From: Bacillota bacterium
Lineage (GTDB): Bacteria > Bacillota > Sulfobacillia > Sulfobacillales > Sulfobacillaceae
DNA: 36,803 bases
NCBI GenBank assembly: GCA_023512105.1
Contig: JAIMAE010000013.1
Span: forward strand, 1 to 36,803
Reading direction: 5' to 3'
Below are positions 19,687-36,105 of this stretch, one piece after another. The notes under the pieces are model-generated. The model ran no database searches. It saw nothing but the letters and a program-made list of their open reading frames with translations, and had not been told where the DNA came from. Both the position numbers and the translations under genes were made by a program. Positions within the stretch are counted from its first letter, which is position 1. Each line of letters starts with the position of its first letter.

Positions 19687-19740
19687 CTCCTGGGCTCTAG
19701 TGGCTGGACCTCCGCTACGATAGCGGTTACAGCATGCTAT

Positions 19741-20010
19741 TTGAGGGAGGAGGAACTTCAGGTACTCACGTTGGTATTGCTAGACGCCGTCCAGGAATGG
19801 GATGAAGGAGTTGGGGCCGTTAGTACCAACCCGAGACATATGGGTTTTGGTTACCTATCTTCGGGGGCGCTATCGAAAATCATATCGGAGGCTAGCGGGC
19901 AACGGATGGCTCAAAATATGGGGATTGGAGTAAGTTGGAGCCCCACGATGTGGTATTTTAGAGGCAAGGTGAGAGGACTACTTTCGATACGAGTTTATAC
20001 TGTGGTATAA
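19741..20010 (+). CDS. Small protein of unknown function
   Basis: Up to 89 residues. TTG starts at 19741 and 19771 are possible; a GGGAGGAGG lies at 19744-19752, too close to one and rather far from the other. The text reads like a folded protein (GYLSSGALSKIISEASGQRM, then GIGVSWSPTMWYFRGKVRGL). It ends 75 bases before the methyltransferase on the same strand and could be a control-protein-like leader gene of the restriction-modification operon, but no helix-turn-helix is recognisable. It may also be a C-terminal fragment. Confidence 0.35.
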   Translation: MREEELQVLTLVLLDAVQEWDEGVGAVSTNPRHMGFGYLSSGALSKIISEASGQRMAQNMGIGVSWSPTMWYFRGKVRGLLSIRVYTVV

Positions 20011-20085
20011 GTGCTTGCTGTTTTAGGTCTTAGAATAACTTCGTTGCCCTTTGGATACAAAGCTAATGTTAGGGTAGTGACAATC

Positions 20086-21084
20086 ATGACTAGACAATGG
20101 AGACACCAGCTAAGTTGCGTTGAACTCTGTGCTGGAGCGGGTGGGTCCGCGCTTGGCCTGGAAATGGCCGGCTTTGGACATGTTGCCCTTGTTGAGATAG
20201 AACGAGACGCCTGCGACACTTTGGCGGCTAATCGGCCAGAATGGAACGTGATTGCAGGAGACATTCGTCAGATAAACGGCCGAGAATATCGTGGTGTTGA
20301 TCTGATTTCGGCCGGCGTGCCGTGCCCGCCTTTCTCTGTTGCCGGAAAACAGCTTGGTCCTGATGACGAGAGGGATCTCTTTCCTGACACGCTGCGTATC
20401 ATAGAAGAAGCAAGACCTAATGCGGTGCTTATTGAGAACGTTCCAGGGTTTGCCTCGAACAAGTTCGCTGACTACCGCAACCGCGTGGTGAACCGGCTGC
20501 ACCGAATGGGCTACCACGTCGAATGGACGGTTTTACAGTCGTCCGACTATGGCGTACCACAATTACGCCCACGCTTTGTTTTGGTTGGAATACGGACGCG
20601 CCGAGCGCTGTTGTTTCGGTGGCCTGCGGCGTTAGGAAGCGCGCCCACAGTCGGCGCAGTACTGCGGGACTTGATGGGTGAACGAGAATGGCCGGGTGTA
20701 GAACTGTGGGCCGAATTCGCCAACGACATTGCACCCACAATTGTGGGTGGGTCGAAGAAGCATGGAGGGCCTGACCTTGGCCCTACCCGGGCGAAGGAGA
20801 AGTGGGCTAAGCTCCATGTTGACGGCATGGGAATCGCGGATACTGCCCCAGGTCCAGAGTTTCCTTTGTATGGCAAACCTCGCCTAACAGTTCGCATGGT
20901 GGCTCGAATTCAGGGGTTTCCTGATACGTGGGTGTTCAGGGGCGGCAAGACTTCGACCTACCGCCAGGTGGGGAACGCCTTTCCACCGCCGGTCGCGCGC
21001 GCTGTAGGCTTGGCGGTATCCACATGCCTTGTCGGTGATGATTTGGCCACACAGTTGGCTGTGGGAGGCGCTCTAGTTGACTAG
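20086..21084 (+). CDS. DNA cytosine-5 methyltransferase
   Basis: 332 residues from ATG 20086; the ribosome-binding site is weak (TTAGGG). It transfers methyl from S-adenosylmethionine to C5 of cytosine. Family motifs in order: ELCAGAGGSALGLEMAGF (motif I, from residue 13), VPCPPFS with catalytic Cys80 (motif IV), ENVPGF with Glu117 (motif VI), DYGVPQLRPRFVLVG (motif VIII) and YRQVGNAFPPPVA (motif X). The target-recognition region between VIII and X is short, about 130 residues, as in single-specificity enzymes. Its end overlaps the restriction gene by 8 nt, so this is the modification half of a type II system. DISARM class 2 also uses a C5 methyltransferase, so it might serve both. Confidence 0.92.
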   Translation: MTRQWRHQLSCVELCAGAGGSALGLEMAGFGHVALVEIERDACDTLAANRPEWNVIAGDIRQINGREYRGVDLISAGVPCPPFSVAGKQLGPDDERDLFPDTLRIIEEARPNAVLIENVPGFASNKFADYRNRVVNRLHRMGYHVEWTVLQSSDYGVPQLRPRFVLVGIRTRRALLFRWPAALGSAPTVGAVLRDLMGEREWPGVELWAEFANDIAPTIVGGSKKHGGPDLGPTRAKEKWAKLHVDGMGIADTAPGPEFPLYGKPRLTVRMVARIQGFPDTWVFRGGKTSTYRQVGNAFPPPVARAVGLAVSTCLVGDDLATQLAVGGALVD

Positions 21085-21946
21085 TATCATTGCTGAGGCT
21101 CGCCAGCAATACCACACTGAGCTCATTCGTGCAGGAGTACTCGGTTTGCGAGCCGGCAACCCGTCGTTTGCTGATGTTGGCAGTAAGACGAGTCTGGATA
21201 TTGCGCAAAGGTTAGCAAAGGTGTTGGCAATCCACACGGGCATGACTCTAGAGAAGACCGAAATGAGTGGGCAGACGCTAGGCAAAAAATTCACGGACAT
21301 CACGATGCAGTTCGTGCAGCGTTGTTTTGATAAGCTTGATGGTGTCAGGCCAGGTCCATGGCGCTATGAAACGGAGCAAGGGATCTCCCGCTTTGTCCAA
21401 TACCGTCACCTTGCCCATTTAGCCGAGTTAGCAGAGAGCAACCCTGACCTTCGTTCTCTCTTGGGATCCGACTACGTGGTGAAGCCAGACATCGTTATTA
21501 GCAGGTTGCGGCTCAAAGATGAGGCGTTTGGGAGCGGGGTCATTTCGGAAGAAGATCGGGTAGCTATGGCCACTCCTTTGCGGGAACAAAACTCGGGCAA
21601 ACCCGGATCTCCGGATCCCATTCTCCATGCCTCGATAAGCTGCAAATGGACAATGCGGAGCGACCGTGCCCAAAACACCAGAACAGAGGCCTTGAACCTC
21701 ATTCGGCACAGGAAGGGCAAGGTTCCCATCATAGTGGCTGTGACTGCCGAACCCATGCCGACGCGGCTAGCTTCACTCGCTCTAGGCACTGGCGATATAG
21801 ACCGGGTTTATCATTTTGCACTGTATGAGTTGCAAGAGGCTGTGCGGGAAAGTGAAAAGGACGACCAGTGCGAGATGCTAAACGAGTTGATTCATGGCGA
21901 GCGTTTATCCGACATCAGCGACCTGCCGTTTGACCTGGCGATTTGA
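21077..21946 (+). CDS. NgoMIV-family type II restriction endonuclease
   Basis: 289 residues from TTG 21077, with GGGAGG 8 nt upstream inside the methyltransferase gene; the 8-nt overlap suggests translation after the methyltransferase. The PD-(D/E)XK core shows as VVKPDIVIS (Asp138) and HASISCKWTMRSDRAQNTR (Lys190), with Glu62 in TEMSGQTLGKKF as the likely extra acid. The spacing PD-x(51)-K with SCKW is the special layout of NgoMIV, Cfr10I and SgrAI-type enzymes. NgoMIV cuts GCCGGC as a tetramer, so a GCCGGC-like site is a reasonable prediction, not a proof. All catalytic residues are present. Its 3' end overlaps the convergent glycosylase gene by 42 nt. Confidence 0.85.
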   Translation: MTSIIAEARQQYHTELIRAGVLGLRAGNPSFADVGSKTSLDIAQRLAKVLAIHTGMTLEKTEMSGQTLGKKFTDITMQFVQRCFDKLDGVRPGPWRYETEQGISRFVQYRHLAHLAELAESNPDLRSLLGSDYVVKPDIVISRLRLKDEAFGSGVISEEDRVAMATPLREQNSGKPGSPDPILHASISCKWTMRSDRAQNTRTEALNLIRHRKGKVPIIVAVTAEPMPTRLASLALGTGDIDRVYHFALYELQEAVRESEKDDQCEMLNELIHGERLSDISDLPFDLAI

Positions 21947-22582
21947 TGAACGTAAAGCCCGGCGATATCGGCAACCTTTTTGAAGAGGGCAAACAGGGCA
22001 CTGGGGTTTTACGGTGCAAATGGTCGCAGCAAAATCCAAGATCGCATAATAAAACCTTGGTTCTTGACCCCGGGGACAACTAGATAACACTTTTTCGGCA
22101 ACGCGAAATAGAGAAGATTTGGTTCTGGGAACCGTTCCATAGAAATACCTGCCACCAAGACGCCCAACATTGACATCGGGTAGAGCGGCACGCTTTTGGT
22201 GTGCAAATACCATAACGGCACCAGCCGTGTACGGGCCAACATGGGGAAGGCGCATGAGTTTGTCTCGTTCTTCAGGAACCGAGCCAATCTCTAGAATGGC
22301 GTGCGCCAGTTCTCTGAGAGCTCGGGCCCTCTGGTATTGTAGCCCTAAGGGGGTCAAAACTTGTAGCAACAGCTCATCTGGCACCGAGGTTAGAGCCATA
22401 GGGTTAGGGGCCAAGTTGATTAGAGTAGGATAGACCTTTGCCACTTTTTGGGCGCCAGTTTGCCGAAGCAACAGTTCCGACACTAGCAGTTCCCAAGGTG
22501 AAACTCGGGGGTGGCGCCAGGGGAAGTCGCGGTAGTTAGTCTCTGACCACTTCAGGAGCCGTTTAGCAAGTACATAGCCCAA
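21905..22582 (-). CDS. HhH-GPD DNA glycosylase, Mig-like (T:G mismatch)
   Basis: 225 residues. I chose TTG 22582 because AGGAGG lies 9 nt upstream; the frame stays open to 22672 but without such a site. The EndoIII/MutY fold is clear: WRHPRVSPWELLVSELLLRQ at the start, then LPHVGPYTAGAVMVFAH, ALPDVNVGRLGGRYF, and a 4Fe-4S loop C-x5-C-x2-C-x5-C (Cys189 to Cys204). At the residue that is Lys in EndoIII and Ser in MutY, this protein has Tyr118, and the catalytic Asp136 is 18 residues on. Mig of Methanothermobacter has Tyr126 and Asp144, the same pair and spacing. Mig excises T from T:G mismatches made by deamination of 5-methylcytosine and is also encoded beside a C5 methyltransferase. It is therefore the probable mutation-avoidance partner of this system. 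Confidence 0.8.
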   Translation of the reverse strand: MGYVLAKRLLKWSETNYRDFPWRHPRVSPWELLVSELLLRQTGAQKVAKVYPTLINLAPNPMALTSVPDELLLQVLTPLGLQYQRARALRELAHAILEIGSVPEERDKLMRLPHVGPYTAGAVMVFAHQKRAALPDVNVGRLGGRYFYGTVPRTKSSLFRVAEKVLSSCPRGQEPRFYYAILDFAATICTVKPQCPVCPLQKGCRYRRALRSSNRQVKRQVADVG

Positions 22583-22817
22583 TGAAGCATTCCTCCTGTT
22601 GATCTTGCCATGTCTCTTCAACCATAAAAATACCCGTAAGACCGTTAAGCCGGCCGGTGTCGGTATACCCATACGGCAGGAATTTTTAGCTGGTCGTCGA
22701 AGAGCAAGTTAGAGACTGGCGAGAAAACACATGTTAACGCTGCATTCCAATCCCGAAGGCTCATGCGCCGGTGATGTGGAATAGCCTAACGGCTAGTGTT
22801 AAGGGGTAATATGTAGC

Positions 22818-23645
22818 ATGGCACGTTCCGCAAACGCACAACTTGCAGTAGATATGTATAATACTCTCCATGCTAAATACGGCTGGAACCCATCTAGGGC
22901 ATGGGAGGGAATAGCGAGGCTGCTACTTACGTGCGAGGTATGGAGAGATGGCCAGTGGGTTGATTTTCACAACGTGGTAGTGTATCGCGAAAGCAACGAG
23001 TTTCCGAGAGATGCTACGGCGCGGAATGCCGCTCTCGAGAGGGCGGAACGATTAAGCACCTATTTGGCTCTATGCCTTGGGGTTTCTCCTCAGCAGCTGT
23101 GCTCTGAGATAGGACTCTTTTGGCGCCATGCCCAAGTTAGGTCCTTACAGCCCCACAATCTCGTGGGAAATGCCTTTCGTTCCTTAGTCGTTCGCGTTCT
23201 TGAACAGTTTGGCAGTTCCGATGTTATGTATGAAGAGGAAGTTAACCCTCATGAGTTATTTCCAGGCCATACATTTCATACACGAAGTAGCAGCCCCAAG
23301 GTGGACATAGTTGCCTACCGTGACGGTACACCTGTTGCTCTTATCTCTACACGCTGGCGATATCGCCACGACCGGGTAGATGTAGTTGACGAGGCGCTAG
23401 CATATATGCCGGCAGCACGCAGAGCTAATCCTTTGTGCCGATTCTATGCAGTGACCGGCGAATTTTCCCCTGCTAGGCTTAAAAAGATCTTAGACAATTG
23501 CCCGCCCATGATGCCAACGGGGGCGATCTCTGGTGCTGTTCATTTTGCTCCCCACTTGATAAGCCGGGGACTCGGAGAGAACGGGAGAGTCAAAGACCTC
23601 CACGATCTCGAATGGCTCATAGGCGAAACAGCCTCGTGGAGGTAA
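22818..23645 (+). CDS. Restriction-nuclease-like protein with altered active site
   Basis: 275 residues from ATG 22818, with AAGGGG 11 nt upstream. The N-terminal 120 residues are helical; the rest has the look of a PD-(D/E)XK core: SPKVDIVAYRDGTPVALIST and then RWRYRHDRVDVV. Asp163 followed by S-T-R179-W-x-x-R-x-D-R repeats, residue for residue in the key places, the S-C-K-W-x-x-R-x-D-R block of the NgoMIV-type enzyme next door, except that the catalytic Lys is Arg. The two proteins are otherwise unlike. It could be a restriction enzyme with an unusual active site, or an inactive binding partner. No second methyltransferase is adjacent. The 235-bp gap from the divergent glycosylase gene should hold both promoters. 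Confidence 0.6.
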   Translation: MARSANAQLAVDMYNTLHAKYGWNPSRAWEGIARLLLTCEVWRDGQWVDFHNVVVYRESNEFPRDATARNAALERAERLSTYLALCLGVSPQQLCSEIGLFWRHAQVRSLQPHNLVGNAFRSLVVRVLEQFGSSDVMYEEEVNPHELFPGHTFHTRSSSPKVDIVAYRDGTPVALISTRWRYRHDRVDVVDEALAYMPAARRANPLCRFYAVTGEFSPARLKKILDNCPPMMPTGAISGAVHFAPHLISRGLGENGRVKDLHDLEWLIGETASWR

Positions 23646-23930
23646 GAGGGGTTGAGGGATGGATAGGGAAGATTCCCGATTGGAAATTGAAGCCCGTTTG
23701 AGAGGCGCGTTAAAACGAGAGGCCCGTCAAGTGTTACATTAACCTTGTTTGCTCCAGTTTGTTTTGATTGTAGAGCGGCGTTTGTGAAGGCTCAGACAAC
23801 AGCGGTGTCACCATCGTGGTTCACTGGAGTCTGCGGCGCTCATGTTGTAAATCTTTGGGTGAGTATCTGCTTGTCGATTCCTCGGTGCGGCTAGTCTACC
23901 GAGAACGAAGATACTGCCATTGATTATTGC
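23646..23930. other. Short gap, one tiny open frame
   Basis: A 27-codon frame at 23658-23741 (MDREDSRLEIEARLRGALKR followed by EARQVLH) has GAGGG just upstream and reads like the start of a helical protein. It stops without a domain, so it may be the 5' stub of a lost gene. The rest separates two convergent genes; CTCGGT/ACCGAG near 23880-23904 is a weak hairpin without a T tract. Confidence 0.25.
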
Positions 23931-24674
23931 TTAGCACCTTTTTAGCTTCATAGCCAGGTTGTCTAAAGTATTGCGATCAGGCAACCAGATTTTCCCAAAT
24001 CCTCTGTGGGCAATCTGAACGTCATGGATCCTAAATTTATAGGCCCAGGTCTTGGGATCACGCTTCCTAAGTAACTTCGCATTTGGAACGTAGATCCGGA
24101 TCAAGTTGAAACCGAACCACAGGTCAGTCTGGAGCTGAATGTCTGCAAATAAATGGTATTTGACCTCAATCTTATGGCGTTCCTTTAGGTATATCAAAAC
24201 ATAAACTTCCCTGAATGCCGAATTGTAAGCGTTACCGAGTCTCCACCTCAATGCTCGCATTTTTGACTCGTACGAACCAGGGATGTGAGCTAGTGCATCT
24301 AAGAAGTCTTGATAACAACGAAGACCGGTATCCTTCCTTAAATAGGAATGGAATGCAGAAAAGGTAGGGATCTTATTAGTCGACTCGATCATCTCGTGAA
24401 ACACGCATACGAGAGGAAACATGGGACGTAGATCTTCAATGACCGGGTGGGCTTCCCTAGCTTTGACATTGGCTAGGGGGCGGTTATCAATGTGGCCCGT
24501 TTCAATGGTCTGGAGAACCTGTTCAATGTCTTCGATGGTGAAGTGATATAAACGACGGTGAACGAACTGTTTCACGTACTGCTGCACCTCGTTGCTAGCA
24601 GACCACGAGGCAAGCAGCTTGTATCCCCCGTTGGAGACCAAGTCCCGGTAGCAGTCGCCGAACGTTACTTCCAT
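23931..24674 (-). CDS. Unknown protein of the DISARM-like operon
   Basis: 247 residues from ATG 24674, with AAGGAG 7 nt upstream. It follows the drmB gene by 88 bases on the same strand and is the last gene of the leftward operon. The first half is helical (ASNEVQQYVKQFVHRRLYHF; VIEDLRPMFPLVCVFHEMIE). The middle reads like strands of an alpha/beta enzyme (REVYVLIYLKERHKIEVKYH, then LFADIQLQTDLWFGFNLIRI), and acidic residues close to Lys could belong to a nuclease core. There is no HxK motif, so it is not the phospholipase-D protein DrmC usual at this place. Not recognised as any known family. Confidence 0.7.
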   Translation of the reverse strand: MEVTFGDCYRDLVSNGGYKLLASWSASNEVQQYVKQFVHRRLYHFTIEDIEQVLQTIETGHIDNRPLANVKAREAHPVIEDLRPMFPLVCVFHEMIESTNKIPTFSAFHSYLRKDTGLRCYQDFLDALAHIPGSYESKMRALRWRLGNAYNSAFREVYVLIYLKERHKIEVKYHLFADIQLQTDLWFGFNLIRIYVPNAKLLRKRDPKTWAYKFRIHDVQIAHRGFGKIWLPDRNTLDNLAMKLKRC

Positions 24675-24762
24675 CCGATTCTCCTTATGCTACGTAAAAG
24701 TTCACTCGCATCCAGCGAACAGGCTACTATCTATGCTCCTATAGTGTATAGTGGCTCCGCTA

Positions 24763-26645
24763 TCAGGCGAAGAAGCCCTGAAGCGACTGGCCGTCTCCTA
24801 CTACTACGCCACGGTCGAGGAACCGGTTAAATCGTTCACAAGCCGTTTCTGGCAGGAGTGCGCAGTTGTGGCAGGCAGCCAGGTTTAACGAATCTGGGCC
24901 CTGCCCCCCTGGCTCCCTAACTCCAAGCATACTGGGTCTGCCGAACACCAGGAAGCCTTAGCCAGTGCATTGCCCAGAACCGAATCGAATCGCCCAGGTA
25001 GCCCCATTTGCACCAAGCCGCCCAAGGTGCCCTCTGCATCGCCGGCGGCAGTGTAAATGAGCAGTCCTGCCATAGGATGCTTCGGATTGTCGGAAACATA
25101 TAGGCGTTCACGCAGGGATGCCGTGCTGTACCCGCACTCGTAGGTGAGCTCATTGATGAGCAAGTGGGATAGCGTATGAACCAGCACAAAAACCGGCGAA
25201 ATCCTTTTTCCGTGTAGTCCTCGCATAGCCAGCGAGGTTTGATAGCGCATGTTCAGCGGTTCAAAGCGGTCGAGCAGCGCCGCTGACTGGGAGGTTTGCC
25301 AGGCAACTAATGTCTGGAAGTTAAGTTCTAGAAAGATGCCTTCTCCGTGAACAATGTACGCGGGAAGCCATCTCTTCCCTGGTGGGGGAGGGTTTCTCCA
25401 TAACATGGCCAGGCGCTCGCCCAGGGTCTGATTAGATTCGGGGTACACCCGGGTAAAACCGGCAAAGGCGCGAGTCTCTCGCATGCGGTCAATGAGCATT
25501 ATGCGCGAGAAGTGTTTCTTTATGGTTGGCTCGTACTGCTGTACTTCTACACTTCTTACCTGCAGTTCGCGGTGGTTATGGGGCTCTTGGAGAACGCGGT
25601 ATTCTTCGTAAAGGAAGGCCGTGTCGGGGTCATGGTCAGGGGTGCTGTCGTCCGCTGCCTGAGAATGCACTTTTGTACGTTGCTGGATTGCGGTCATGAT
25701 TTGGTCATCCGAAAATGAACCTAGCAGTTCCGGGTGTTGACGTCGCAATATCCCTCCACTTAGCTGCCCAGCGCCCTGAAGAATCTCGACGAGTTGCCAA
25801 ATTCGTTCCTCTCTGAGCGCAGAGTCAAGCTCCTCGGGAATACTGATGTCTTGGGGCAGGTAAATAGAGCTTCGGATCTGAGCAAAATACACGTTGCTAG
25901 CGTTTCTGAGTGCTCCCCGAAGAGGTCGGCCACAGAGCTCTCTGGCTTCAGCCCCTAGCCACGGCTTGCTTCCTGTGCAGAGAAAGGGCCTTCCAGCAAA
26001 ATCCAAGGTAGAACTCAATTCGGTTGTCGTGCCATCTGGCGCAGCGTTTGTGATTCCTGCGAGTGTCCGCGCGGGGGTGCCGCAACCTTCACAGGTGACC
26101 CGCTGGTTAGCTAAGGTCAACCCTCCAGTAGAGCGTAGACGCAAAGGGCCATGGCAGTCGGGGCTGGGCGTGCGGTGCACCCATTCATTCCAGGGGAAGT
26201 CATGAAGGTGGCCGAAGTCACATATGGTTACAAAAGGAACCTGGACAAAGTAACTCTTCCGGCCGCGGGCTTCGCAATCCGGGCAGGGCGGCAACTTGCG
26301 GGCCGTGTCGGGAAACTTTTGGAGGAGCCCGCACCGTCGGCAGTAATGCCACGTGGGAAAGCGCAGGCAGGGGATTTTAAGGTCTGCATTAGGGGTGAAG
26401 ATCCCGCGCCGAGGTATGCGGTAGTCTGGTGGCATATAGAAGCAATCAACACCGAGTTGCTTCTCGAGGCGTTCTTCCTTAATGTAGAACTCCTCCGTTT
26501 GGACTGGTACCTGATCAGGATTACTACGATTAAACCAGTGGTCAAGTCCGCAAACAATAAGTGAAATACCGTCCCGCATTATTATCATGGCTCCTACACC
26601 GAACGGCGCTATGAGCTGACCGCGGCGAATAGGCCAGTTAGGCAT
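24763..26645 (-). pseudogene. drmB: DISARM-like DrmB (DUF1998), frameshifted near the 3' end
   Basis: The start is ATG 26645, with AAGGAGAGG 6 nt upstream, overlapping the drmA stop by 8 nt (ATGCCTAA). The N-terminus PNWPIRRGQLIAPFGVGAMI is typical of DrmB. A zinc knuckle (Cys102, 105, 121, 124) and a second cysteine-rich part (CEGCGTPARTL) follow. The DUF1998 region has FVLVHTLSHLLINELTYECG and then WCSADPVCLE. At a run of six G (24904-24909) the frame goes wrong and stops at 24885. With one G added the frame continues QGPDSLNLAACHNCALLPET and so on to FFA at 24763, giving 627 residues and the other half of the C-terminal Cys cluster. As it stands the product lacks those last two-fold cysteines. 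A decayed, phase-variable or mis-sequenced gene are all possible. DrmB is a core DISARM protein that acts with DrmA. Confidence 0.85.
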
Positions 26646-29600
26646 CGAGATCCTCTCCTTGGCTGACATAGATAAACCGCTCAGTGATTTCGGCTTCGCA
26701 CTGAGCATCCACGTGCCTCAGTGACCGCAATGTGGGCCACGCCATCTGGCGCTGGGCCGCGCTTATATAACTTCCTGCGGTGTATAGCAAGGGTTGGGAA
26801 GCATTGTCTCGCGGTTCCCAGTCGGTTCGTTGCCATCGTTGCCATTCTTCCAGCCGCTTCTGAAACACGTTTTGAGCTTGCGCTATAGCTTCAGGTTGCG
26901 CGACGGCAACGCGAGCTTTCAACGTGTTGAAGAACTGGTCGAGTAACTGTGCGGGACAAGGATAGGGACTTCTTCCTACTTTCTTGTCACCGTGCTGACG
27001 TACATAGCCAACCATGAGTGCATGGAGTCCCCGTTCCAGTGCTGGTGTCGAAAATGGTGTTACACTGGAAGGCTCAACGTAAGAATAAAGTCGCTGGTGG
27101 TAACTACGAAAGTGCTCGTAATGCGAGCGATCCCGAGGCTTCGATGCATTGTAGAGTGTCACCACGAGTGCGGGTCTTTCCGTCCACCGGCGGCCTACGC
27201 GTCCGGTTACCTGGATATATTGCGAAGTGGTTTTAGGCTGGCCTGCTACCACCATTAGGGAAAGGCGGTCGATGTCTACCCCAACCTCAATTATGTTTGA
27301 GGCAAGGCAAACATCAACGACTCCCTTAACACCGTAGGGAGTTTCCAGTGACGTAATAGCTCCGCTAATTTCTCCGCTCCTCAAACGGCTCGTTAACTCT
27401 AAGATGTTGCTAACCCGGCGAATCTCACTCCAACGGATTCCAAGACGATTACCTATCGCTTTTAAGTGATCGGGTATGTCCGACTGTAGCAGAGAAATGG
27501 TAGTGCCCAATTCTCTCAGGCTGTTAAAAAACGCCAATACCGTCCACCATGCATCGCGTTGCTCTTCGGGAAGTTGGTTTGCCGCTTCCAATAGCCCAGC
27601 GATTGTCCACACTTCTAGCGACTGCATGGATCTGAGGGCGGGAGCATACACACCGACGTACAATGTTCCAGGGGCGCGTTGACCATTGGGCAACGTGGCG
27701 TGCTGGCTGAAGAAGGAATCCGATATATCGAGCCCTGGAGGAGGAAACACCCGCGCCTTGGGCCTAGCGTAAAGGCGCCGGATTTGCTCTTTATATCGCC
27801 GCGTGGTTGCTGTCGCGCAAACAATCTTAGGCACTACCACCCCTTGCTTCGTCGGTTCTTTGCACAAGTCGGAAATCAGAGTCTCGTACAGGCCGACAAG
27901 TGACCCTAGAGGACCACTCATGAGGTGCAACTCGTCTTGAATTATCAAAGAGGGAGGAGGGGCCGCACGCGAGCCATCATCTTTTAGTCCGAAAAGAGCA
28001 CGAGCCTCGGGCTTCCATGCTAACATCGCGAATTTATCGACTGTGGCTACGACAAGTGTGGGTCGGCGTTCGTAAATGTCCTCATCAATCGTAACAACCG
28101 GCAACTCCGCGTGGAAAGGGCACAAAGGGTCGGGACAGTGGGGGATCACAGTGTCACGCGAGCGAACGAAGCCAATCACTGGCTGAGTGGTCTTTCCCTT
28201 TTCGACAACCCGCCCCATTTGTGCTCCACACCACGGGCATCGGTCGAGCAGGAACGGATTTTGGTCGCCTCCTTTTTTTGATAGGTTTCGATAGGCTTCG
28301 ACGGCATCCTTCCTTGTGTTGGGGGTTGTCTCCCCTCCCAGCCAGATCCCAACCTGAAACGGGGTGCTACCTAATTCCTCATGCTGCCGTCTCAAGAATT
28401 CCATAGCGCATATCAGACGGGCAGCTCGCAAGAATTGCTGCGCCGTTAAGAGGCGGAGCGAATATCTCATAAGTGCCGTGACTCCAGTCGCGGAGGAGTT
28501 CCGTATGCGCTGCAGAAATGCCCCGAATGCTATTAATGCGAGGTATGCTTCGGTCTTTCCACCTCCCGTGGGAAACCAGAGCAAGTCTACTGTTTCCCGA
28601 TTGGGATCTGACGGCTCGCCAACTGACTGTATGGTGGCTAAGAGAAAGCCGATCTGAAACGGACGCCAAGCAAAATTAGAATTAAACGGGGCAGTTAACG
28701 GGGGCTGGTACTGGCCGGTTATTCTAAGGCCGTTGTTTTGATAAGAGGCTCTGCGCATAAGGCGCGGGCGTGTGGCTTGCAAGGATATGGCCTGATTCAT
28801 GAGCACGAAGGCCTTCCGCGCCTGCGGATTTTCGCGGAGGTATTGAATTCCATTCTTCATTCGCTCCCACGCTTCATCAGCTTCTGATAAATTCCTAGTA
28901 GCAATGTCGCGGTAGTCCTCCGCAAGCGATGTGATGCGAGACCCTTGAACTTGTATCCAGCTTTTGTACAATGCGGTGAGTTCGTCGAGAGCGGCGAATC
29001 CTTTTGAAGCGAGCGTATCCTCGTCGGTTAAAATTCCAATCGGTATTTCCAAGGATGTGCCGTCTGCCCGGCGAACATCTGCGGTGATGCTGGGAACCTC
29101 GATGGACGGCATAGGCTCTCCGTACACCGTGGTGGTGCGGTGGTTTTGGGGGTCTTCCCAGTTCGCAGCGCACCCGTGACCTACCGCAAACGTCTGGGCG
29201 TTGGAATACAACAGGCCTAGCGAGCGCAGTTCGTCATCATCGACCGGTCCTAGCCTATGCAGTTCAGGATAAGGAAGTATCATGCCATCTGGCCCACGCG
29301 CGACCGATATTTGTAGGTGACATTGGAATAAGGCCCTTTCATCCACAGCCTCATCACCGTTGCTTTCGTTTACTATCGCAACGGTGACGAGCCAAGGGCA
29401 CCCTTCTATTCTCTCATATCGGCGCGCGTGAGTGACCACCTTAATGTCAAGACCTTCAGTTCCTTCCTCGGTACGGGAGGTGGGTTGCATCTGCACCGCA
29501 CGCGAACTTATGGCCGTGTGGATTGTTGTTAGGCAAACGGGGCTTCTCACCCACCATGTCCACGCTCGCGTCCCGACCCTTACGGGCAATCTGTGATATC

Positions 29601-30069
29601 GCCCCGCAGTAAATGTAATCTTCATCTCAGCTCCGTCAGGAAATTCTGTCAAAAAGCTAACGCCCATGGCACTTGGGCGGTAAGACCCAGTGAAACTGAG
29701 CTCAAAGTCATCGTCGGTCGACCCCCCGTCTAAGCTCTCGCCTCCATCTGCTTGCGTGCCGACTGTGCCAGAGGAATCGCCGTATACATCATCAGAGTCT
29801 TCCAATGGCGCTTGATCTGGTTGAATACAGTCCTCCATTTGGCCCGTGGGGTACAAAACCCCTAACCCATACTGCTGAGTTGGGGTATTTCTAGTTAAAA
29901 TTTCTTGACCCGTTGCAGCGTCCCTCCAGGGCCCCCGTGCCTCCTCTTCGGTTGCGAATATGATCGGCTGGGAGCAATCGAGGTCGCGGCCTCCGCAATT
30001 GGGCCCCAAAAGTTCGCTCCGAAGAAATTTCAGTAATCCATTCCGTGCCGTGAGGTTTTGTTCTAACAT
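26638..30069 (-). CDS. drmA: DISARM-like DrmA, SF2-type helicase
   Basis: 1143 residues from ATG 30069; GGAG lies 14 nt upstream, a weak fit. The N-terminus FLRSELLGPN and GLGVLYPTGQ matches the DrmA start pattern. The acidic stretch at about 85-125 is probably a linker. Helicase motifs: WFPTGGGKTEAYLALIAF (Walker A, about 500), IIQDELHLMSGPLGSL (motif II with DELH, about 710), CATATTRRYKEQ (motif III), NIIEVGVDIDRLSLMVVAGQ (motif V), and YIQVTGRVGRR (motif VI, about 955). All are intact. In DISARM, DrmA with DrmB loads on DNA with 5' overhangs and blocks phage DNA. Together with DrmB downstream and the DrmE-like genes upstream this defines a DISARM-related operon. A Druantia DruE-type helicase is the alternative, but that is one long protein with DUF1998 fused. 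Confidence 0.88.
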   Translation of the reverse strand: MLEQNLTARNGLLKFLRSELLGPNCGGRDLDCSQPIIFATEEEARGPWRDAATGQEILTRNTPTQQYGLGVLYPTGQMEDCIQPDQAPLEDSDDVYGDSSGTVGTQADGGESLDGGSTDDDFELSFTGSYRPSAMGVSFLTEFPDGAEMKITFTAGRYHRLPVRVGTRAWTWWVRSPVCLTTIHTAISSRAVQMQPTSRTEEGTEGLDIKVVTHARRYERIEGCPWLVTVAIVNESNGDEAVDERALFQCHLQISVARGPDGMILPYPELHRLGPVDDDELRSLGLLYSNAQTFAVGHGCAANWEDPQNHRTTTVYGEPMPSIEVPSITADVRRADGTSLEIPIGILTDEDTLASKGFAALDELTALYKSWIQVQGSRITSLAEDYRDIATRNLSEADEAWERMKNGIQYLRENPQARKAFVLMNQAISLQATRPRLMRRASYQNNGLRITGQYQPPLTAPFNSNFAWRPFQIGFLLATIQSVGEPSDPNRETVDLLWFPTGGGKTEAYLALIAFGAFLQRIRNSSATGVTALMRYSLRLLTAQQFLRAARLICAMEFLRRQHEELGSTPFQVGIWLGGETTPNTRKDAVEAYRNLSKKGGDQNPFLLDRCPWCGAQMGRVVEKGKTTQPVIGFVRSRDTVIPHCPDPLCPFHAELPVVTIDEDIYERRPTLVVATVDKFAMLAWKPEARALFGLKDDGSRAAPPPSLIIQDELHLMSGPLGSLVGLYETLISDLCKEPTKQGVVVPKIVCATATTRRYKEQIRRLYARPKARVFPPPGLDISDSFFSQHATLPNGQRAPGTLYVGVYAPALRSMQSLEVWTIAGLLEAANQLPEEQRDAWWTVLAFFNSLRELGTTISLLQSDIPDHLKAIGNRLGIRWSEIRRVSNILELTSRLRSGEISGAITSLETPYGVKGVVDVCLASNIIEVGVDIDRLSLMVVAGQPKTTSQYIQVTGRVGRRWTERPALVVTLYNASKPRDRSHYEHFRSYHQRLYSYVEPSSVTPFSTPALERGLHALMVGYVRQHGDKKVGRSPYPCPAQLLDQFFNTLKARVAVAQPEAIAQAQNVFQKRLEEWQRWQRTDWEPRDNASQPLLYTAGSYISAAQRQMAWPTLRSLRHVDAQCEAEITERFIYVSQGEDLDA

Positions 30070-30093
30070 AGAGTTCCAACTAGCTCCTCTCGT

Positions 30094-31587
30094 TCAAATA
30101 AACTGATTCTCCTTGCGTAATCGTCCTAGCTCGGAAATGGGCACGTAGTAAGTCTTTGGCGCAATGGCCTCAACCACAAATGCCCCATGATTGCCCCAGC
30201 CCGTTTCAGGCATGACTAACTCAAGGTACCCTTGCTCCCATAAGGTTGTGAGATCAGAATGTTGTAGGCTTTCGAGCAAAATGCGTCTAAGCTCTAAGCC
30301 CGCTCTTCTGTGAGCAAGATATAGCCTGCGCGCGTTCTTCCAAAAAGATTTGGGGTCACCAGGAAGGCCGACCAGCCGAGCCACAGCTTCGAAGTCTCGA
30401 TACTTGCGAGGGCTAATGCTCTGCTCCATAGCCCAGTACCTTACGGTGTGTTCGTTGGCTCCTTTGCCGCCCAGCTCACGGAGGCGAGCTGCGGTGTCTG
30501 CGGCCCCCTGATTAGTCAACCAGACGCGCAGGGGGGCTTTCCATTGCGCCTGCAACGCTTGCATCTCCTCGTATTGATCAGCGCCTAGCAACTGTCTAGC
30601 GAACGCCTCAACATGATCTCCCGAATCAGATATGCGGAGAACGATTGCAATGCCTGGATGTAGGGCACTGATCGCGATTCGGTGAAGAGTCGCTTGGGGA
30701 GGGCTTGCGTCGGTGCCTATAGCCATAGCTGTGCCATCCTGTGCCAAAAATACTGTCGACCCATCACCTAACTCTATTAAGCGCGCAGGCACAACGTCTA
30801 TTTTCTCTCGGCTACTCGATTCAAAATCCTCCTGCCGCACGAGCTTGTTCCAAGGCCAATCGAAGTCATCGGTCGCCTGAAAAGTGGCAGTCAACACTAT
30901 CGTGGAGGGCTCATGCTCACGGTCAAACCAAGGAGCAGGCAGTTGAGCTGGTAGCCATTCGTGTACCACCAACTGCAGATTGCGGATCCGTGGAGATCGG
31001 AAGATATACTGGGGAAACCACTGGGGGCTGCCGATTGCAACGGCACGGTCATATACATTAGACTTTCTCAATGCATAAGGGTGTAGTACCCGCACGTGAG
31101 TTTCTAAAACATCGTATGCCAGCGGCTCAAAGATGTGGGCAAGGCGTGGTTTTGGCAACAGAAGAATGGGGCTTTCGCTATCCATGTCTTGAACAAGGCC
31201 TTTCGTTGCACGGAGCAGGGGGGACTCGTCCCGGTGCCTTAATCTGTCTAGTCGCTGGATTAGGTCTTCGCAGGTTAATTGCAGGGCGGGATAAAATCGG
31301 GGGACCTGAATGAGGCGCCGAAGCGTATCCTCATAGTCATGCGGCGTTAGGAGCCGCTCGTTGGCCGACGGGATCGGCAAAACCGCTAACAGAAACCGGT
31401 AATAGCGGAGAGTACTGACTACGGAAGCGAGTATACCTCCCTTATCATCACCGACTTGAGAGGATAGATGAGAAATTATGTGCCAGAAGCGTTTCAACTC
31501 ATCATCCACGACGCGGTGAGTGTAAACCTCAAAATGTTCATAGCACTCATAAAGATGAGAGCATTCATTCATAGTTATCAAGTTCAT
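30094..31587 (-). CDS. DrmE-like protein, C-terminal part
   Basis: 497 residues from ATG 31587, with GGAAGG 10 nt upstream; a GTG at 31596 overlapping the previous stop by 4 nt is the alternative. It lies 24 bases before drmA. The C-terminal third has GANEHTVRYWAMEQSISPRK, then YRDFEAVARLVG, a (T)-V-R-x-W-(6)-I-x-P...D-x-x-A block that I associate with DrmE of class 2 DISARM. A helical N-terminal half and a beta middle part (STVFLAQDGTAMAIG) carry no enzyme motif. Together with the 333-residue product it makes about 830 residues, the size expected of one DrmE. The role of DrmE is not settled in known systems. The family call is from memory of the pattern and gene order. Confidence 0.6.
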   Translation of the reverse strand: MNLITMNECSHLYECYEHFEVYTHRVVDDELKRFWHIISHLSSQVGDDKGGILASVVSTLRYYRFLLAVLPIPSANERLLTPHDYEDTLRRLIQVPRFYPALQLTCEDLIQRLDRLRHRDESPLLRATKGLVQDMDSESPILLLPKPRLAHIFEPLAYDVLETHVRVLHPYALRKSNVYDRAVAIGSPQWFPQYIFRSPRIRNLQLVVHEWLPAQLPAPWFDREHEPSTIVLTATFQATDDFDWPWNKLVRQEDFESSSREKIDVVPARLIELGDGSTVFLAQDGTAMAIGTDASPPQATLHRIAISALHPGIAIVLRISDSGDHVEAFARQLLGADQYEEMQALQAQWKAPLRVWLTNQGAADTAARLRELGGKGANEHTVRYWAMEQSISPRKYRDFEAVARLVGLPGDPKSFWKNARRLYLAHRRAGLELRRILLESLQHSDLTTLWEQGYLELVMPETGWGNHGAFVVEAIAPKTYYVPISELGRLRKENQFI

Positions 31588-31592
31588 GGTTG

Positions 31593-32594
31593 TCACGCCT
31601 TCCGAGTCAAAAACGTGGTTGGTTTAATTTTCGAAACGGTGGGCAGCTGGACCGCAGGATTCGGGATTGCTTGTTGAGCGTATTCCGCTTGTAGCCCTCG
31701 TAAGGCATCTTCAAATAGCGGCTCGCTTGGATCCAGTACGACGATGCTGCGGGTTGGCCGTACAGTCCAGTACGAGTCAATGAAGGCGCGGGCCCCATTA
31801 AAGAGAACTACGTCCGGCGGAGCTTTGCTTTCAGTAAGCCGACTGCACAGCTCTGTGCGGTAGGGCTGAAAAGTTCCCTTTTGAATTCGGACTATGTCGT
31901 CCAGCGTTCCTTCAACATCCTGATCTGGTACTCTTAGCCTTAACAGTGCTTCGTGGCGCACTATATCTGAATGCCCCACAACTACACAGTTTCGTACGGT
32001 CACATGTTGAAGTTTTTCCGCCGCTTCGTGGCCGAGAAGCTGGGCAACAAACCGCTCATTGCCCACTACTTCGCGTCCTTTTTGGTGGCTGGGAAGGTTG
32101 GGCACCGGTGAGGTGGTAAGCGGCCTGACCAAATAGGCCCTGGATTCAGAGATTAGCTCCTCAAGATTCCCGCCGGCCTCTCCTTGAAGCCGCAGGCGCA
32201 AGCGCCTCTCGCCCTCAATCTCAGTCGTACCCATGAGTGCACCTTTTAGGACGCGCTTTCTTCGGCTATACGTAGCAGGCGTACCACAGGGCAGCGAAGA
32301 CAAGTAGTTAAAGTAACTTGAAGGATCATCCGTTTCTTTTTTGACAAGTGCTACGACAATGCCAACGGCGAGCCAGAGAGCAGCGTAATTAAGAATGGGG
32401 AGAACTAGCACCGTCGTAAGTCTGGAAGACGGGGGGATGACACACGTCGCAGCGTTCTGCCCGACGGCAGCCAGCTGACGGCACCAAGAAGGAATAGGGT
32501 ACCATTGTCCTGCCTCATGAAAAGCCAATGGGGAGTCAGAGATTGCCCAATCGTTTTTATGGATCCCGACGAGGCTGCCCACTGGATACCACAC
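31593..32594 (-). CDS. DrmE-like protein, N-terminal part
   Basis: 333 residues from GTG 32594, first gene of the operon; the ribosome-binding site is weak (GGTAGG just before the start). A hydrophobic segment (LTTVLVLPILNYAALWLAVG) could be a buried helix of an alpha/beta fold rather than a membrane span. Further on come LRLRLQGEAGGNLEELISES, VVLFNGARAFIDSYWTVRPT and RSIVVLDPSEPLFEDALRGL, which resemble a nucleotide-binding or helicase-like domain without a Walker A. Its stop lies next to the start of the 497-residue gene in the -1 frame, as expected for a split protein or coupled pair. I read the two as DrmE halves; separate unnamed proteins are possible. Confidence 0.6.
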   Translation of the reverse strand: MWYPVGSLVGIHKNDWAISDSPLAFHEAGQWYPIPSWCRQLAAVGQNAATCVIPPSSRLTTVLVLPILNYAALWLAVGIVVALVKKETDDPSSYFNYLSSLPCGTPATYSRRKRVLKGALMGTTEIEGERRLRLRLQGEAGGNLEELISESRAYLVRPLTTSPVPNLPSHQKGREVVGNERFVAQLLGHEAAEKLQHVTVRNCVVVGHSDIVRHEALLRLRVPDQDVEGTLDDIVRIQKGTFQPYRTELCSRLTESKAPPDVVLFNGARAFIDSYWTVRPTRSIVVLDPSEPLFEDALRGLQAEYAQQAIPNPAVQLPTVSKIKPTTFLTRKA

Positions 32595-32633
32595 CTACCG
32601 TCCACAGCATAACAGGGGAAGAGTGCAAAAATA

Positions 32634-32662
32634 ATTGTAGTAAGTTATTTCTCGAGTGTCAA
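32634..32662 (-). promoter_or_regulatory. Sigma-70 promoter of the DISARM-like operon
   Basis: On the minus strand, TTGACA (32662-32657) and TACAAT (32639-32634) are spaced by exactly 17 nt: a full-consensus -35 and a 5/6 -10. The expected start site is near 32627, about 33 nt before the GTG at 32594. The IS4 end lies 12 bp upstream of the -35 box, so the promoter survived the insertion. Confidence 0.8.
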
Positions 32663-32674
32663 ACTATGCAATTT

Positions 32675-33921
32675 CTGAGCCATCCCCAGTTTTGGGGCAG
32701 TGCCCGGGGAACGCAAAAAGGAAATCCCCTCGCTGACCGCGAAAGATTAGGTCGTCACACCATCATGCGGAAAGCGAGGGGTATCTCCATGGCGAGTGTA
32801 CCACAATGGGAGGCGTGGTGGATGACCCAGATGGGCTCGTTGCGCCGATCGCAGGCAAAAACGTTGGTAGCCTGTATGGCGGGGTTGATCCGCGATGGGC
32901 ACCTGGGCGTCGCCGCCATCGGGCGCGCCATGCCGGGGCCGGTCGCCCCGAAACACCGGATTAAACGGGTGGACCGGTTTTTGAGCGACGCCCGGCTGGA
33001 CCGGGATGCAGCCCGTGCCGATCGCATCCGGCTCGTCGTCATGGGCCGGAAGGTGGTGCGGGTCATTATCGATGGGACGGATGTGCATGATGGCCATCAG
33101 ACCCTGGTGGCGGCGATCGTCACGGGGCATCGCCGGGCCCTGCCGGTCGCGGCGGAGACGGTGGCGAAGGCAGACCTGACCTTGCGGCAAAACGCGATCG
33201 AACTCGCGTTCCTACAGCGCGTGCGGCGGCTCTTTCCCCCCGGCTGTCAGCCCATCCTGCTGGCGGACCGCGGCTTTTGTCGGGTCGCGTGCCTCGCGGC
33301 CGCCGAGGCCCTCGGATGGCGGTACGTCATTCGGCTGACCGGTGACCGGTGGGTGGACACGCCCGATTACACCGGGATCCTCCACGACCTGCCGGCCCGC
33401 CGGGTCCGCTGGGGGGATTGGCGCCGGGCCGCCATCACGAAAGCCCGGTTCGTGACCCGGTTGATCGCCACTTGGGCGGAGGGGCAGCAAGCACCGGGGT
33501 TTCTCGTCACCAATCTCCAATACGTCTCCACCGACCAAGTCATCCGCGAATATGCCCGCCGGTTTCAGATCGAAGAATGCTTCAAGGATAGCAAAAACAG
33601 CCACCGGGGCGGGTTGCGACTGCGGGGGGTACACGTTACCCGCGCCGATCGGTGGAACCGCCTGTGGGTGATTTGGATGTGGGCCTATGCCTGGCTGTCG
33701 TGGGTGGAGCGCTGGGCGGAGGACACGGGCTGGGCACGCCGCCTGCGCGCCAACACCGTCCAGCACCGCACCCATGCCTGTTGGAAGGTAGGCTGGTACG
33801 CGTGGCGTGAACTGCATCCGTCGCTGGACGCCCTGTTACCGTGGCAGCCACGGCTGCTACTGCTCACGCTGGAGTCCCTTCGCGGGTAGTGAATTACGTA
33901 GTTAAAGTGGGGATCAGTCAG
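32675..33921 (+). mobile_element. IS4-family insertion sequence, apparently intact
   Basis: The ends CTGAGCCATCCCCAGTTTT (32675-32693) and, inverted, CTGACTGATCCCCACTTTA (33921-33903) match at 14 of 19 positions. The length is 1247 bp with one intact transposase gene. No target duplication is visible in the flanks (...ATGCAATTT and ACCATGTCA...), so ends may be off by a few bases or the copy is old. Confidence 0.75.
32789..33889 (+). CDS. IS4-family transposase
   Basis: 366 residues from ATG 32789, with GAGGGG 7 nt upstream; ATG 32765 is an alternative. The DDE residues are complete: VRVIIDGTDVHDGH (first Asp), PILLADRGFCRVACLAAAEA (second Asp) and YARRFQIEECFKDSKN (Glu), the last being the Y-x2-R-x3-E-x6-K signature of IS4-family enzymes. 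The N-terminal 100 residues (AKTLVACMAGLIRDGHLGVA, PKHRIKRVDRFL) form the usual DNA-binding part. No lesion is visible, so the element could still move. It reads away from the DISARM-like operon towards the AlbA_2 gene, with which it is convergent. Confidence 0.9.
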   Translation: MASVPQWEAWWMTQMGSLRRSQAKTLVACMAGLIRDGHLGVAAIGRAMPGPVAPKHRIKRVDRFLSDARLDRDAARADRIRLVVMGRKVVRVIIDGTDVHDGHQTLVAAIVTGHRRALPVAAETVAKADLTLRQNAIELAFLQRVRRLFPPGCQPILLADRGFCRVACLAAAEALGWRYVIRLTGDRWVDTPDYTGILHDLPARRVRWGDWRRAAITKARFVTRLIATWAEGQQAPGFLVTNLQYVSTDQVIREYARRFQIEECFKDSKNSHRGGLRLRGVHVTRADRWNRLWVIWMWAYAWLSWVERWAEDTGWARRLRANTVQHRTHACWKVGWYAWRELHPSLDALLPWQPRLLLLTLESLRG

Positions 33922-34015
33922 ACCATGTCATGGTTGCTCAAACCTCCCTTGCAGCTCAGAGGAGATTTCAGAAGTGAACCTCAAGTCGACATTTCGATCT
34001 TCGGGGTGTCGCGAC

Positions 34016-35236
34016 TTACGGCAACACCCAAGGAACTGGGCTATGTTGCCAAAGCCACCTCTCAGCGATCTGCTTGACGCTATCTTCGTGGTGTAGATAT
34101 CCTGAATCATCGAGACAACGGATCACGAAATCGATGGCAATATCGAGTAGAGGCTCCTTTGCGCGCCGTAATGGGCCGTAATGCTGCGCTAGCCGGTAGC
34201 CATTTAGATGAACGGGTACCGTTTTTTCCGCCGAAAATAGTCCTTCGGGAGTGATACCGTCTTCCGGCCAGTTACTCAACGAGAGTTGGATATCGGAGCA
34301 GTAAAAACCAGGGAAAATGCGCTGGAGAGTGTCATCCTCACAAATGGACGAAAGCATGCTAGCTAAGCGGTGTGTCACCCACTGCAAAGGAATTGGACTT
34401 AATTGGCCTCGTGCCTCGAAGGCCACCACTCCTTGGCTGTTAAAGCGCAGCCAAACGTGCGGCGTAGAGAACCGTTCCCGTACTCCATCGATGGCATCCC
34501 TCGCTTCGAAAAGACCGTATGCGGACCGCCACTGGTAAGAGGAGACTGTTCCAGAAATAGGTGCCGCGGTTCTGATCGGGAACCGCCGGAGCACGAACTC
34601 CTTTAGTTGCGTCTTGACCTGGCTGTCGAAGACGGGGGGAACGTCGGAGAAGCGCGCCACCACTGTGAGCCAGTAACCATCCGCGTTGGCCATGGCAGCA
34701 TTACTGGCCCATTGCAGATATGTGGATGCCCTCGGATCGCGAGTGTATTCGTCTGCACTGAAAAGACGACGCAGCGATTCCAGGTCGGCTGGGTGGTTTT
34801 GATCGCCTACGCGGTACAGCACCCCTTTCTGATAGTGCCACAATGGCCTAGGGGCTGATTCGGCATCTACCCAAATCGCTAGAATACATCGCGAGGGATC
34901 GTGGGGAAGTGGGATTGTACGAGATTTAGGCCGATATGTAGGCCGAATATCTTGATAGCATCGGTTGCTCAGACGCTCTTCGGCGCTCGCGGTGGGAATG
35001 CCTGGGGGTGGCCATAGGGGTTGTTTGCTGCTGGTTTTACTTCGATCTTCATCCACTCCGATTAAGATGATGCCCCCATCATGATTGGCCATCCCCACAA
35101 TGGACTCGGTGACTGACTGGGAAAAGTCCCGTTTGAAATCGAGGCGCTCCGATTCAGACGGCGGCGAAGGATCCGTTAGCCACGTTTCAAGGTCTGGGAA
35201 GCTCACTGAATCGAAGTTTTCGAATAAGGCCGCCAC
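34016..35236 (-). CDS. AlbA_2 (Schlafen-type) domain protein
   Basis: 406 residues from GTG 35236, with AAGGTGG 7 nt upstream. The N-terminal 65 residues carry the AlbA_2 signature: ESERLDFKRDFSQSVTESIV (residues 28-47), then GMANHDGGIILIGVDED, where the E...K and the ANxxGGxxxIGVxD turn are conserved. GVLYRVGDQNHPAD closes the domain at about residue 145. The remaining 250 residues have no recognised domain. AlbA_2 proteins range from ATP-binding regulators to RNA-cutting Schlafen relatives and are frequent in defence islands; which applies here is unknown. A promoter lies about 100 bp upstream and an IS4 copy separates it from the DISARM-like operon. Confidence 0.8.
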   Translation of the reverse strand: MAALFENFDSVSFPDLETWLTDPSPPSESERLDFKRDFSQSVTESIVGMANHDGGIILIGVDEDRSKTSSKQPLWPPPGIPTASAEERLSNRCYQDIRPTYRPKSRTIPLPHDPSRCILAIWVDAESAPRPLWHYQKGVLYRVGDQNHPADLESLRRLFSADEYTRDPRASTYLQWASNAAMANADGYWLTVVARFSDVPPVFDSQVKTQLKEFVLRRFPIRTAAPISGTVSSYQWRSAYGLFEARDAIDGVRERFSTPHVWLRFNSQGVVAFEARGQLSPIPLQWVTHRLASMLSSICEDDTLQRIFPGFYCSDIQLSLSNWPEDGITPEGLFSAEKTVPVHLNGYRLAQHYGPLRRAKEPLLDIAIDFVIRCLDDSGYLHHEDSVKQIAERWLWQHSPVPWVLP

Positions 35237-35541
35237 ATTATCACCACCTTAGCCAGCGGGTGTTGGGATTTCACGAGTTCCACCCATAGGGTTTGAACCG
35301 CTGATTCGGACCCCATCCAGGACCATCCGCCGCATAAATTGTACAATCTAAAGCGCTGTCCGCAACAAAAAGCCTAACGCCGCGATATTCTACCGGTTTT
35401 GCAACAGGCGTACCCCTGCTGCGGCGTGTTCGACGGTATCAGACTGACATCGGTTGTAAAGCTAAAGAGTTGGTCTGCTGGCCGATGCTAGGTCGTCATT
35501 TCATCCGTTCCAGGGAATCAGCGAGTGGAGTAGCGTGAATG
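35237..35541. other. Intergenic stretch with promoter only
   Basis: About 300 bases without a gene or repeat that I can support, apart from the promoter at 35338-35365. Confidence 0.5.
35338..35365 (-). promoter_or_regulatory. Promoter of the AlbA_2 gene
   Basis: On the minus strand, TTGCGG (35365-35360) and TACAAT (35343-35338) are spaced by 16 nt, about 100 bases upstream of the GTG at 35236. The -10 box is near-consensus. Confidence 0.5.
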
Positions 35542-35949
35542 TCACCCGCGTGAGACAAGAAAAATAACAAACGCAAATAGACCAGCCACTAACAAAGGCG
35601 CAACGACATTTTGGGTGCGCTGACTAGCGCACAATGCCTGTATAGCATCGGTCAAAATTCTCAAGGCTTCGGATGCCATTGGGTCCGAGCCTGACAGCAC
35701 ATCTAGGCCGACTTCAGTAGCCAAATCGAAGTCGGGATGGTTGACGGTTGCACAGATTCGACCCGACAACGCAGCGTTGTCGCGACGCAGTTCTGCTATC
35801 AATCCGTCTCTCCCTTGGGCTTTAATGTAAGTCGAGATGGCTTGCGATGTTGTTAGCGGCGATTCATGTGTGACTGAAACCCATCCCGCCCACTGGTTGC
35901 GCTTTCGAAGCCAATATTGGTGGCTAGCTTGTAGATCTCCTGGGACCAT
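35542..35949 (-). CDS. Tail-anchored small protein of unknown function
   Basis: 135 residues from ATG 35949, with GAGGAGGA about 8 nt upstream. Residues 1-110 are soluble and mostly helical (SQAISTYIKAQGRDGLIAEL, MASEALRILTDAIQALCAS). The last 20 residues form one hydrophobic helix ending in a short basic tail (VVAPLLVAGLFAFVIFLVSR), so the protein is probably anchored in the membrane by its C-terminus, facing the cytoplasm. Tail-anchored partners occur in some membrane-acting defence systems, but no toxin motif is seen. It lies upstream of the AlbA_2 gene on the same strand, 305 bases away, with separate promoters. Confidence 0.6.
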   Translation of the reverse strand: MVPGDLQASHQYWLRKRNQWAGWVSVTHESPLTTSQAISTYIKAQGRDGLIAELRRDNAALSGRICATVNHPDFDLATEVGLDVLSGSDPMASEALRILTDAIQALCASQRTQNVVAPLLVAGLFAFVIFLVSRG

Positions 35950-36001
35950 GAGGCATTCCTCCTCGACGCGCCGTCTGAGACATCATCCAATGCCTAGAAC
36001 T

Positions 36002-36031
36002 ACTGTATTTTGGGTTATATGGAGTTGTCAA
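36002..36031 (-). promoter_or_regulatory. Promoter of the tail-anchored protein gene
   Basis: On the minus strand, TTGACA (36031-36026) and TACAGT (36007-36002) are spaced by 18 nt, about 55 bases upstream of the ATG at 35949. Confidence 0.55.
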
Positions 36032-36105
36032 CCACAACAATTCGTGGTACCCCAACAACGGTTCGGGGGCTGGGTTCCGAGACGCTGGTTGGCGCATGTG
36101 CATAT

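Follow-up and report, generated by a model that had tools for sequence, protein, structure and literature searches.

A putative Mig-type thymine-DNA glycosylase encoded beside an NgoMIV-type m5C restriction-modification system in a bacterium of the Sulfobacillaceae

The locus and the surrounding island

We analysed a stretch of 36,803 nucleotides (contig JAIMAE010000013.1), called here the window, from a genome assigned to the Sulfobacillaceae. Its features are listed in Table 1. The start of the gene for an NgoMIV-family restriction endonuclease (REase) overlaps the end of a gene for an m5C DNA methyltransferase (MTase), and on the other side the REase gene meets a glycosylase gene tail-to-tail with an overlap of 42 bp (21905-21946). 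The glycosylase gene is 862 bp from the MTase frame. The first-pass annotation had described the gene as lying tail-to-tail with an m5C restriction-modification (R-M) pair, and this arrangement was confirmed, with the MTase upstream of the REase. The glycosylase frame is open over its whole length; an alternative in-frame ATG at 22672 would give a protein of 255 aa, but it has no Shine-Dalgarno site like that of the TTG start.

Table 1. Features of the window, and the fusion frame found in another genome of the same phylum
Feature	Position	Strand	Details
m5C DNA methyltransferase gene	20086..21084	+	332 aa; PF00145, 239 bits; alternative start GTG 20011
NgoMIV-family type II REase gene	21077..21946	+	289 aa; PF09015, 339 bits
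Mig-type HhH-GPD/[4Fe-4S] glycosylase gene	21905..22582	-	225 aa; start TTG 22582
FeS ligands C189-X5-C195-X2-C198-X5-C204	21971..22018	-	from the family alignment
Tyr179 codon	22046..22048	-	Mig Leu187, MutY Gln182; many MTase-linked bacterial relatives also have an aromatic residue here
Asp136 codon (catalytic Asp)	22175..22177	-	Mig Asp144
Tyr118 codon	22229..22231	-	Mig Tyr126, EndoIII Lys120
Ala44 codon	22451..22453	-	Mig Ala50, MutY Val45; discriminator of T:G vs A:G
Glu36 codon	22475..22477	-	aligned with Mig Glu42 and EcMutY Glu37
Shine-Dalgarno AGGAGGA	22591..22597	-	8 nt upstream of TTG 22582
DrmB	24885-26708	-	DISARM-like
DrmA	26638-30069	-	DISARM-like
DrmE-like protein	30094-31596	-	DISARM-like
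Transposase	32528-33889		
Schlafen/AlbA_2 protein	34016-35236		
Fusion frame	L098:266-2083 (G165:C14)		m5C MTase + Mig-class glycosylase, 606 aa

When compared with NgoMIV (1FIU), the REase scored 237 bits over nearly its full length. It keeps Q63, D140, S185, K187, R191, D193, R194 and E201 of NgoMIV, among them the recognition residues R191, D193, R194 and Q63 and the majority of the catalytic residues, and has Thr at the position of the active-site Glu70 of NgoMIV and five relatives. With this replacement the enzyme may be weakened, or it may use the neighbouring Asp instead. NgoMIV cleaves GCCGGC after the first G (PMC4081073), and on the sequence evidence the R-M system of the window would be expected to recognise and methylate GCCGGC.

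From about 20 kb onward (19700-36803) the G+C content drops from ~0.65-0.79 to 0.50-0.56, and this part of the window probably represents a defence island acquired from elsewhere. The DISARM-like genes (24885-31596) have no m5C MTase of their own within the window; the nearest is the MTase of the NgoMIV-type system.

Relation of the glycosylase to Mig and MutY

A domain search of the glycosylase matched HhH-GPD alone (PF00730, 34 bits), with nothing C-terminal of it. The protein ends about 20 residues past the FeS motif and does not have the NUDIX-like 8-oxoG domain of MutY. The best PDB chain by sequence was Mig (1KEA; phmmer E = 4e-31, far above chance), whereas the scores of EndoIII (1ORN and 2ABK) were well under that of Mig. 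The best identity was 41%, and the protein sits on a long branch.

Tyr118 and Asp136 do not vary in the family alignment. As the first-pass annotation had noticed, they stand at the catalytic positions with the 18-residue spacing of Mig Tyr126/Asp144; the catalytic Lys120 of EndoIII is absent, Tyr118 standing in its place. The annotation also took this Tyr as a mark of Mig, as opposed to the Ser of MutY, and here it was mistaken. Tyr occupies the EndoIII Lys120 position in every MutY-class row examined except one from Neisseria, which has Ser, and also in B. stearothermophilus MutY (PMC2714593). Because nearly every MutY has Tyr too, the Tyr/Asp pair excludes EndoIII but is uninformative between Mig and MutY. 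The first gap of the FeS motif is one residue shorter than in Mig, as it is in the relatives from Thermus and Halomicrobium.

The substrate pocket is more telling. Mig and MutY differ at Mig positions 50 and 187 (Ala/Leu vs Val/Gln), Phe27 and Arg47 also form part of the thymine pocket of Mig, and the double change A50V/L187Q switched the specificity of Mig from T/G to A/G (PMC2714593). In Mig numbering, the glycosylase has Phe27, Gln47, Ala50 and Tyr187 (Phe20, Ala44 and Tyr179 in its own numbering). Phe27 and Ala50 are the residues of Mig, Gln47 is MutY-like where Mig has Arg, and Tyr187 is neither the Leu of Mig nor the Gln of MutY. MutY-class rows have Leu at position 27, Val or Ile at 50 and Gln, Asn or Glu at 187, while Tyr187 was also found in MTase-linked bacterial relatives (L025, L028, L030, L032, L097, L098, L102-L105, L179, L180, L184, L189, L191 and L192). 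Position 187 was the best sorter: one long MutY (L038) combines Ala50 with Glu187, and one MTase-linked protein (L185) Val50 with Tyr187. Since the V45A and Q182L variants of EcMutY bound T:G better and yet did not excise T (PMC2714593), such residues are signs of specificity and not proof of it.

To compare the classes by the rest of the sequence, Mig-class and MutY-class profiles were scored with positions 27, 46, 47, 50 and 187 masked. The glycosylase scored 196.2 bits with the Mig-class profile and 153.6 bits with the MutY-class profile (+42.6). Among left-out controls, the difference was +0.2 to +71 for Mig rows, with a median of +42, and -48 to -104 for MutY rows, without overlap. In a tree of 69 rows, the MutY sequences, among them the short ones of the host family, formed a starred clade (99/95) without the glycosylase, although with this sparser sampling the AU test did not reject joining it to that clade (p = 0.25). 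In a denser tree, for which Mig-class rows were added and the number of long branches was reduced, the protein again fell outside the MutY clade (98/96), and the AU test rejected the joining at p = 0.021. The Mig class as a whole does not form one resolved clade in the trees. The AlphaFold2 model (pLDDT 95.2) fitted 1KEA best (VIA-align Z 25.5, 1.8 A over 208 residues), and Foldseek also ranked 1KEA first; MutY chains, at Z ~24, came within ~1.5 Z units of this fit. Only in structure, and not by profile, is the lead of Mig over MutY narrow. Pocket, masked profile and model support the placement of the glycosylase with the Mig class, and the trees put it outside MutY. The Mig-like identity proposed in the first-pass annotation was supported, and placement inside the MutY clade, which the annotation had named as a refutation, was not observed.

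It could still be argued that the protein is a short MutY whose substrate is adenine opposite G or 8-oxoG, and that chance has placed it beside the R-M genes. It matches the NCBIfam mutY model with 120 bits (the cut-off is 286), Mig apart no well-known enzyme is closer than MutY, and MutY-class proteins without the C-terminal domain occur in the genome family of the host. We consider this very unlikely in view of the pocket residues, the masked profile and the AU test with dense sampling. Moreover, the host, a draft assembly of 404 contigs of which single ones may be contamination, already has a MutY-class gene on another contig (L002), together with an Nth-class gene and three UDG-family genes, so the window glycosylase is not needed for the repair of A:G or U. 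The MutY-class proteins of the host family (L005-L011 and L230-L238) are ~250 aa long and extend 13-47 residues past the glycosylase domain, without an 8-oxoG domain.

A known protein of this kind is Mig.MthI of the Methanothermobacter plasmid pFV1 (1KEA). Like the window protein, it consists of a single HhH-GPD/FeS domain of ~220 aa without a C-terminal domain, has the Tyr/Asp catalytic pair, the Glu, Ala50 and Phe27, and is encoded beside an m5C R-M pair, its own REase being of the NgoPII family (L018). The window protein is 33-35% identical to it and differs in having Tyr for Leu187, Gln for Arg47 and X5 for X6 in the first FeS gap, in belonging to a bacterial genome and in its partner, an NgoMIV-type (GCCGGC) system. 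With MutY, an adenine glycosylase, it shares the fold, the Tyr/Asp pair, the Glu and the FeS motif, but it has no 8-oxoG C-terminal domain, carries Ala/Tyr/Phe for Val/Gln/Leu and falls outside the MutY clade.

The protein was also matched, with 108 bits, by the PADLOC model PDLC03398 ('Type II nicking endonuclease'), and it lies in a defence island, both of which would fit a role in nicking DNA or in restriction, as part of the R-M system or of the adjacent DISARM-like system. The same model, however, gives Mig itself 525 bits, so the label merely repeats how Mig is filed, and it gives MutY 130-171 bits. The lyase position has no Lys, the system already contains the NgoMIV-type REase, and the MTases of the relatives are accompanied by differing REases; a nicking or restriction role therefore seems to us hardly credible. 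A base-excision restriction enzyme of the PabI kind was likewise rejected, since such enzymes have a different fold and an REase is already present. With scores of this size for MutY, PDLC03398 may also mislabel ordinary MutY as a defence gene.

Linkage to m5C methyltransferases across genomes

Relatives were gathered from plasmids, genome contigs and viral contigs and by three phylum-wide searches (398, 400 and 377 genomes). The m5C MTases were detected with a profile made from eight of the MTases encoded at these loci; for one of the eight (L019) the record is cut and was read in the wrong frame. Counting was done on clusters at 80% identity, with the window and the Thorarchaeota-type rows left out, in the linkage survey that the first-pass annotation had recommended. 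With relatives classed as Mig or MutY by residues 50 and 187 alone, an m5C MTase was found within 7.5 kb in 44 of 48 Mig-class clusters and in none of 38 MutY-class clusters (Fisher 3e-20), which also speaks against a MutY that lies beside R-M genes by chance. Within 2 kb an MTase was present in 39 of the 48. The query alignments were built mostly of linked members, so the absolute rates may run somewhat high; the contrast between the classes is unaffected, because both come from the same searches. Nor were MTases linked to those MutY-class proteins that are short and lack the C-terminal domain, so it is not protein length that carries the link.

The linkage is not universal in the Mig class, as no MTase was found near the 24 Thorarchaeota-type Mig-class rows. 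Among L033-L062, the Mig-class proteins of Thorarchaeota have Trp187 and were never seen with an m5C MTase nearby.

The REases of the MTases paired with the relatives vary (PLD, NgoPII and HNH types), and no vsr gene was present within any Mig-class stretch. The proteins from Thermus, Caldicellulosiruptor and haloarchaeal plasmids that lie beside a DNA cytosine methyltransferase are of the same class as the window protein and show the same linkage, with other MTases and other companions; they are annotated as 'hypothetical protein' or 'base excision DNA repair protein'. At two haloarchaeal loci (L015 and L016) the order is Mig, methyltransferase and then an ATP-binding protein. In Thermoanaerobacter thermocopriae (L060:4522-6633) the MTase and the Mig-class gene are each split into two frames, by decay or by sequencing error. 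A scan of viral contigs with the window protein alone gave no closer relative.

Overall, glycosylase and MTase diverge together (Mantel r 0.61, n = 45), but the locus of the window departs from this pattern. Its nearest MTase among the Mig-linked loci, from Chloroflexi (L063), is ~60-62% identical (62% by BLASTP). A Mig-class gene lies near it too, separated from it by an HNH-like frame, and the glycosylase that this gene encodes is only ~36% identical to that of the window. With so close an MTase and so distant a glycosylase, the two kinds of gene may have come together on more than one occasion.

In one genome of the host's phylum (G165) the two domains are joined in a single frame, with PF00145 at residues 18-340 followed by HhH-GPD at residues 419-539. 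In the glycosylase part the class-defining residues are of the Mig kind, and all four cysteines of the FeS cluster are present. The fusion was found once, 266 bp from a contig end, in 1 of 18 genomes of its family, and none was found in a scan of viral contigs. A Thermus plasmid at first taken as carrying a second fusion proved to have two adjacent genes.

These observations bear on whether the protein might be a general U:G/T:G glycosylase with no functional tie to this MTase. Mig processes U:G and T:G equally (PMC2714593), the Thorarchaeota branch is unlinked, and the window glycosylase does not track its MTase. On the other side stand the strong linkage across phyla, the abutting genes, the one fusion and the overall co-divergence, and we regard an untied glycosylase as unlikely.

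Proposed role and relation to Vsr

Based on sequence and model, the protein is very likely a monofunctional thymine(uracil)-DNA glycosylase of the Mig type, which works as repair partner to the GCCGGC-type m5C R-M system next to it. The substrate, the pathway and the methylation site of the glycosylase/MTase pair are as we infer them in what follows. The neighbouring MTase would make 5-methylcytosines, whose deamination to T would give T:G mismatches. The glycosylase would flip out the T opposite G, and also U, into a pocket formed by Phe20, Glu36, Ala44, Tyr118 and Tyr179, with Asp136 as the catalytic carboxylate, and leave an abasic site. Strand cutting is not expected from it, because the Lys of AP lyases is missing. 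The AP endonuclease, polymerase and ligase of the host would then bring back C, so that the host's own methylated sites would be protected.

Presumed purpose and genomic slot are shared with Vsr, although fold and chemistry are unrelated: Vsr nicks, whereas the window protein should excise a base. In Mycobacterium paragordonae an orthologous NgoMIV pair has vsr beside the MTase, and in work on the GCCGGC system of the gonococcus the lesion substrate GTCGGC/GCCGGC was tested with Vsr (PMC6116569). The MTase of the window is ~55-60% identical to MTases that lie beside NgoMIV-family REases on plasmids, and in Loktanella beside a NaeI-family enzyme; several proteobacterial plasmids have neither Vsr nor a Mig-type gene. 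By analogy, the same chemical problem would be handled by Vsr in some NgoMIV-type systems and by a glycosylase here. A natural contrast is thus available between NgoMIV-type systems with Mig, with Vsr and with neither.

The first-pass annotation saw in the gene a bacterial replacement for Vsr. This stands for the single system, where the Mycobacterium ortholog has Vsr, but not for the genome, since the host carries two vsr genes besides, and one of these shares its contig with a further m5C MTase and an ATPase-like gene; the glycosylase is a per-system alternative. The Vsr of one system need not serve the sites of another.

More broadly, Mig-type thymine glycosylases are probably a widespread mobile counterpart of Vsr in bacteria and archaea and include a subclass with an aromatic Tyr/Trp pocket. 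They would be a third gene (once a fused domain) of m5C R-M systems in several phyla, on plasmids and on viral contigs. Mig beside an m5C R-M pair is already known from plasmid pFV1, and the window gene is another case, in a bacterium; the interesting parts are the bacterial breadth of the MTase-linked Mig class and the fusion. A literature search, whose coverage excludes the greater part of subscription journals and with them the primary Mig papers, turned up no account of MTase-linked Mig proteins in bacteria and none of an MTase-Mig fusion. If this reading is true, bacteria commonly meet the cost of m5C methylation with a glycosylase instead of Vsr, and many entries named 'A/G-specific adenine glycosylase', 'hypothetical protein' or 'Type II nicking endonuclease' would be thymine glycosylases. 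Within the survey, Mig position 187 alone (aromatic/aliphatic vs Gln/Asn/Glu) sorts the classes. The self-protection of methylated sites becomes testable with genes from culturable hosts, such as those of the Thermus and Caldicellulosiruptor plasmids.

The host's second m5C system (L114, G000:C350, 1153-5395) consists of a methyltransferase, two frames, one of them HSP90/MORC-type ATPase-like, and then vsr.
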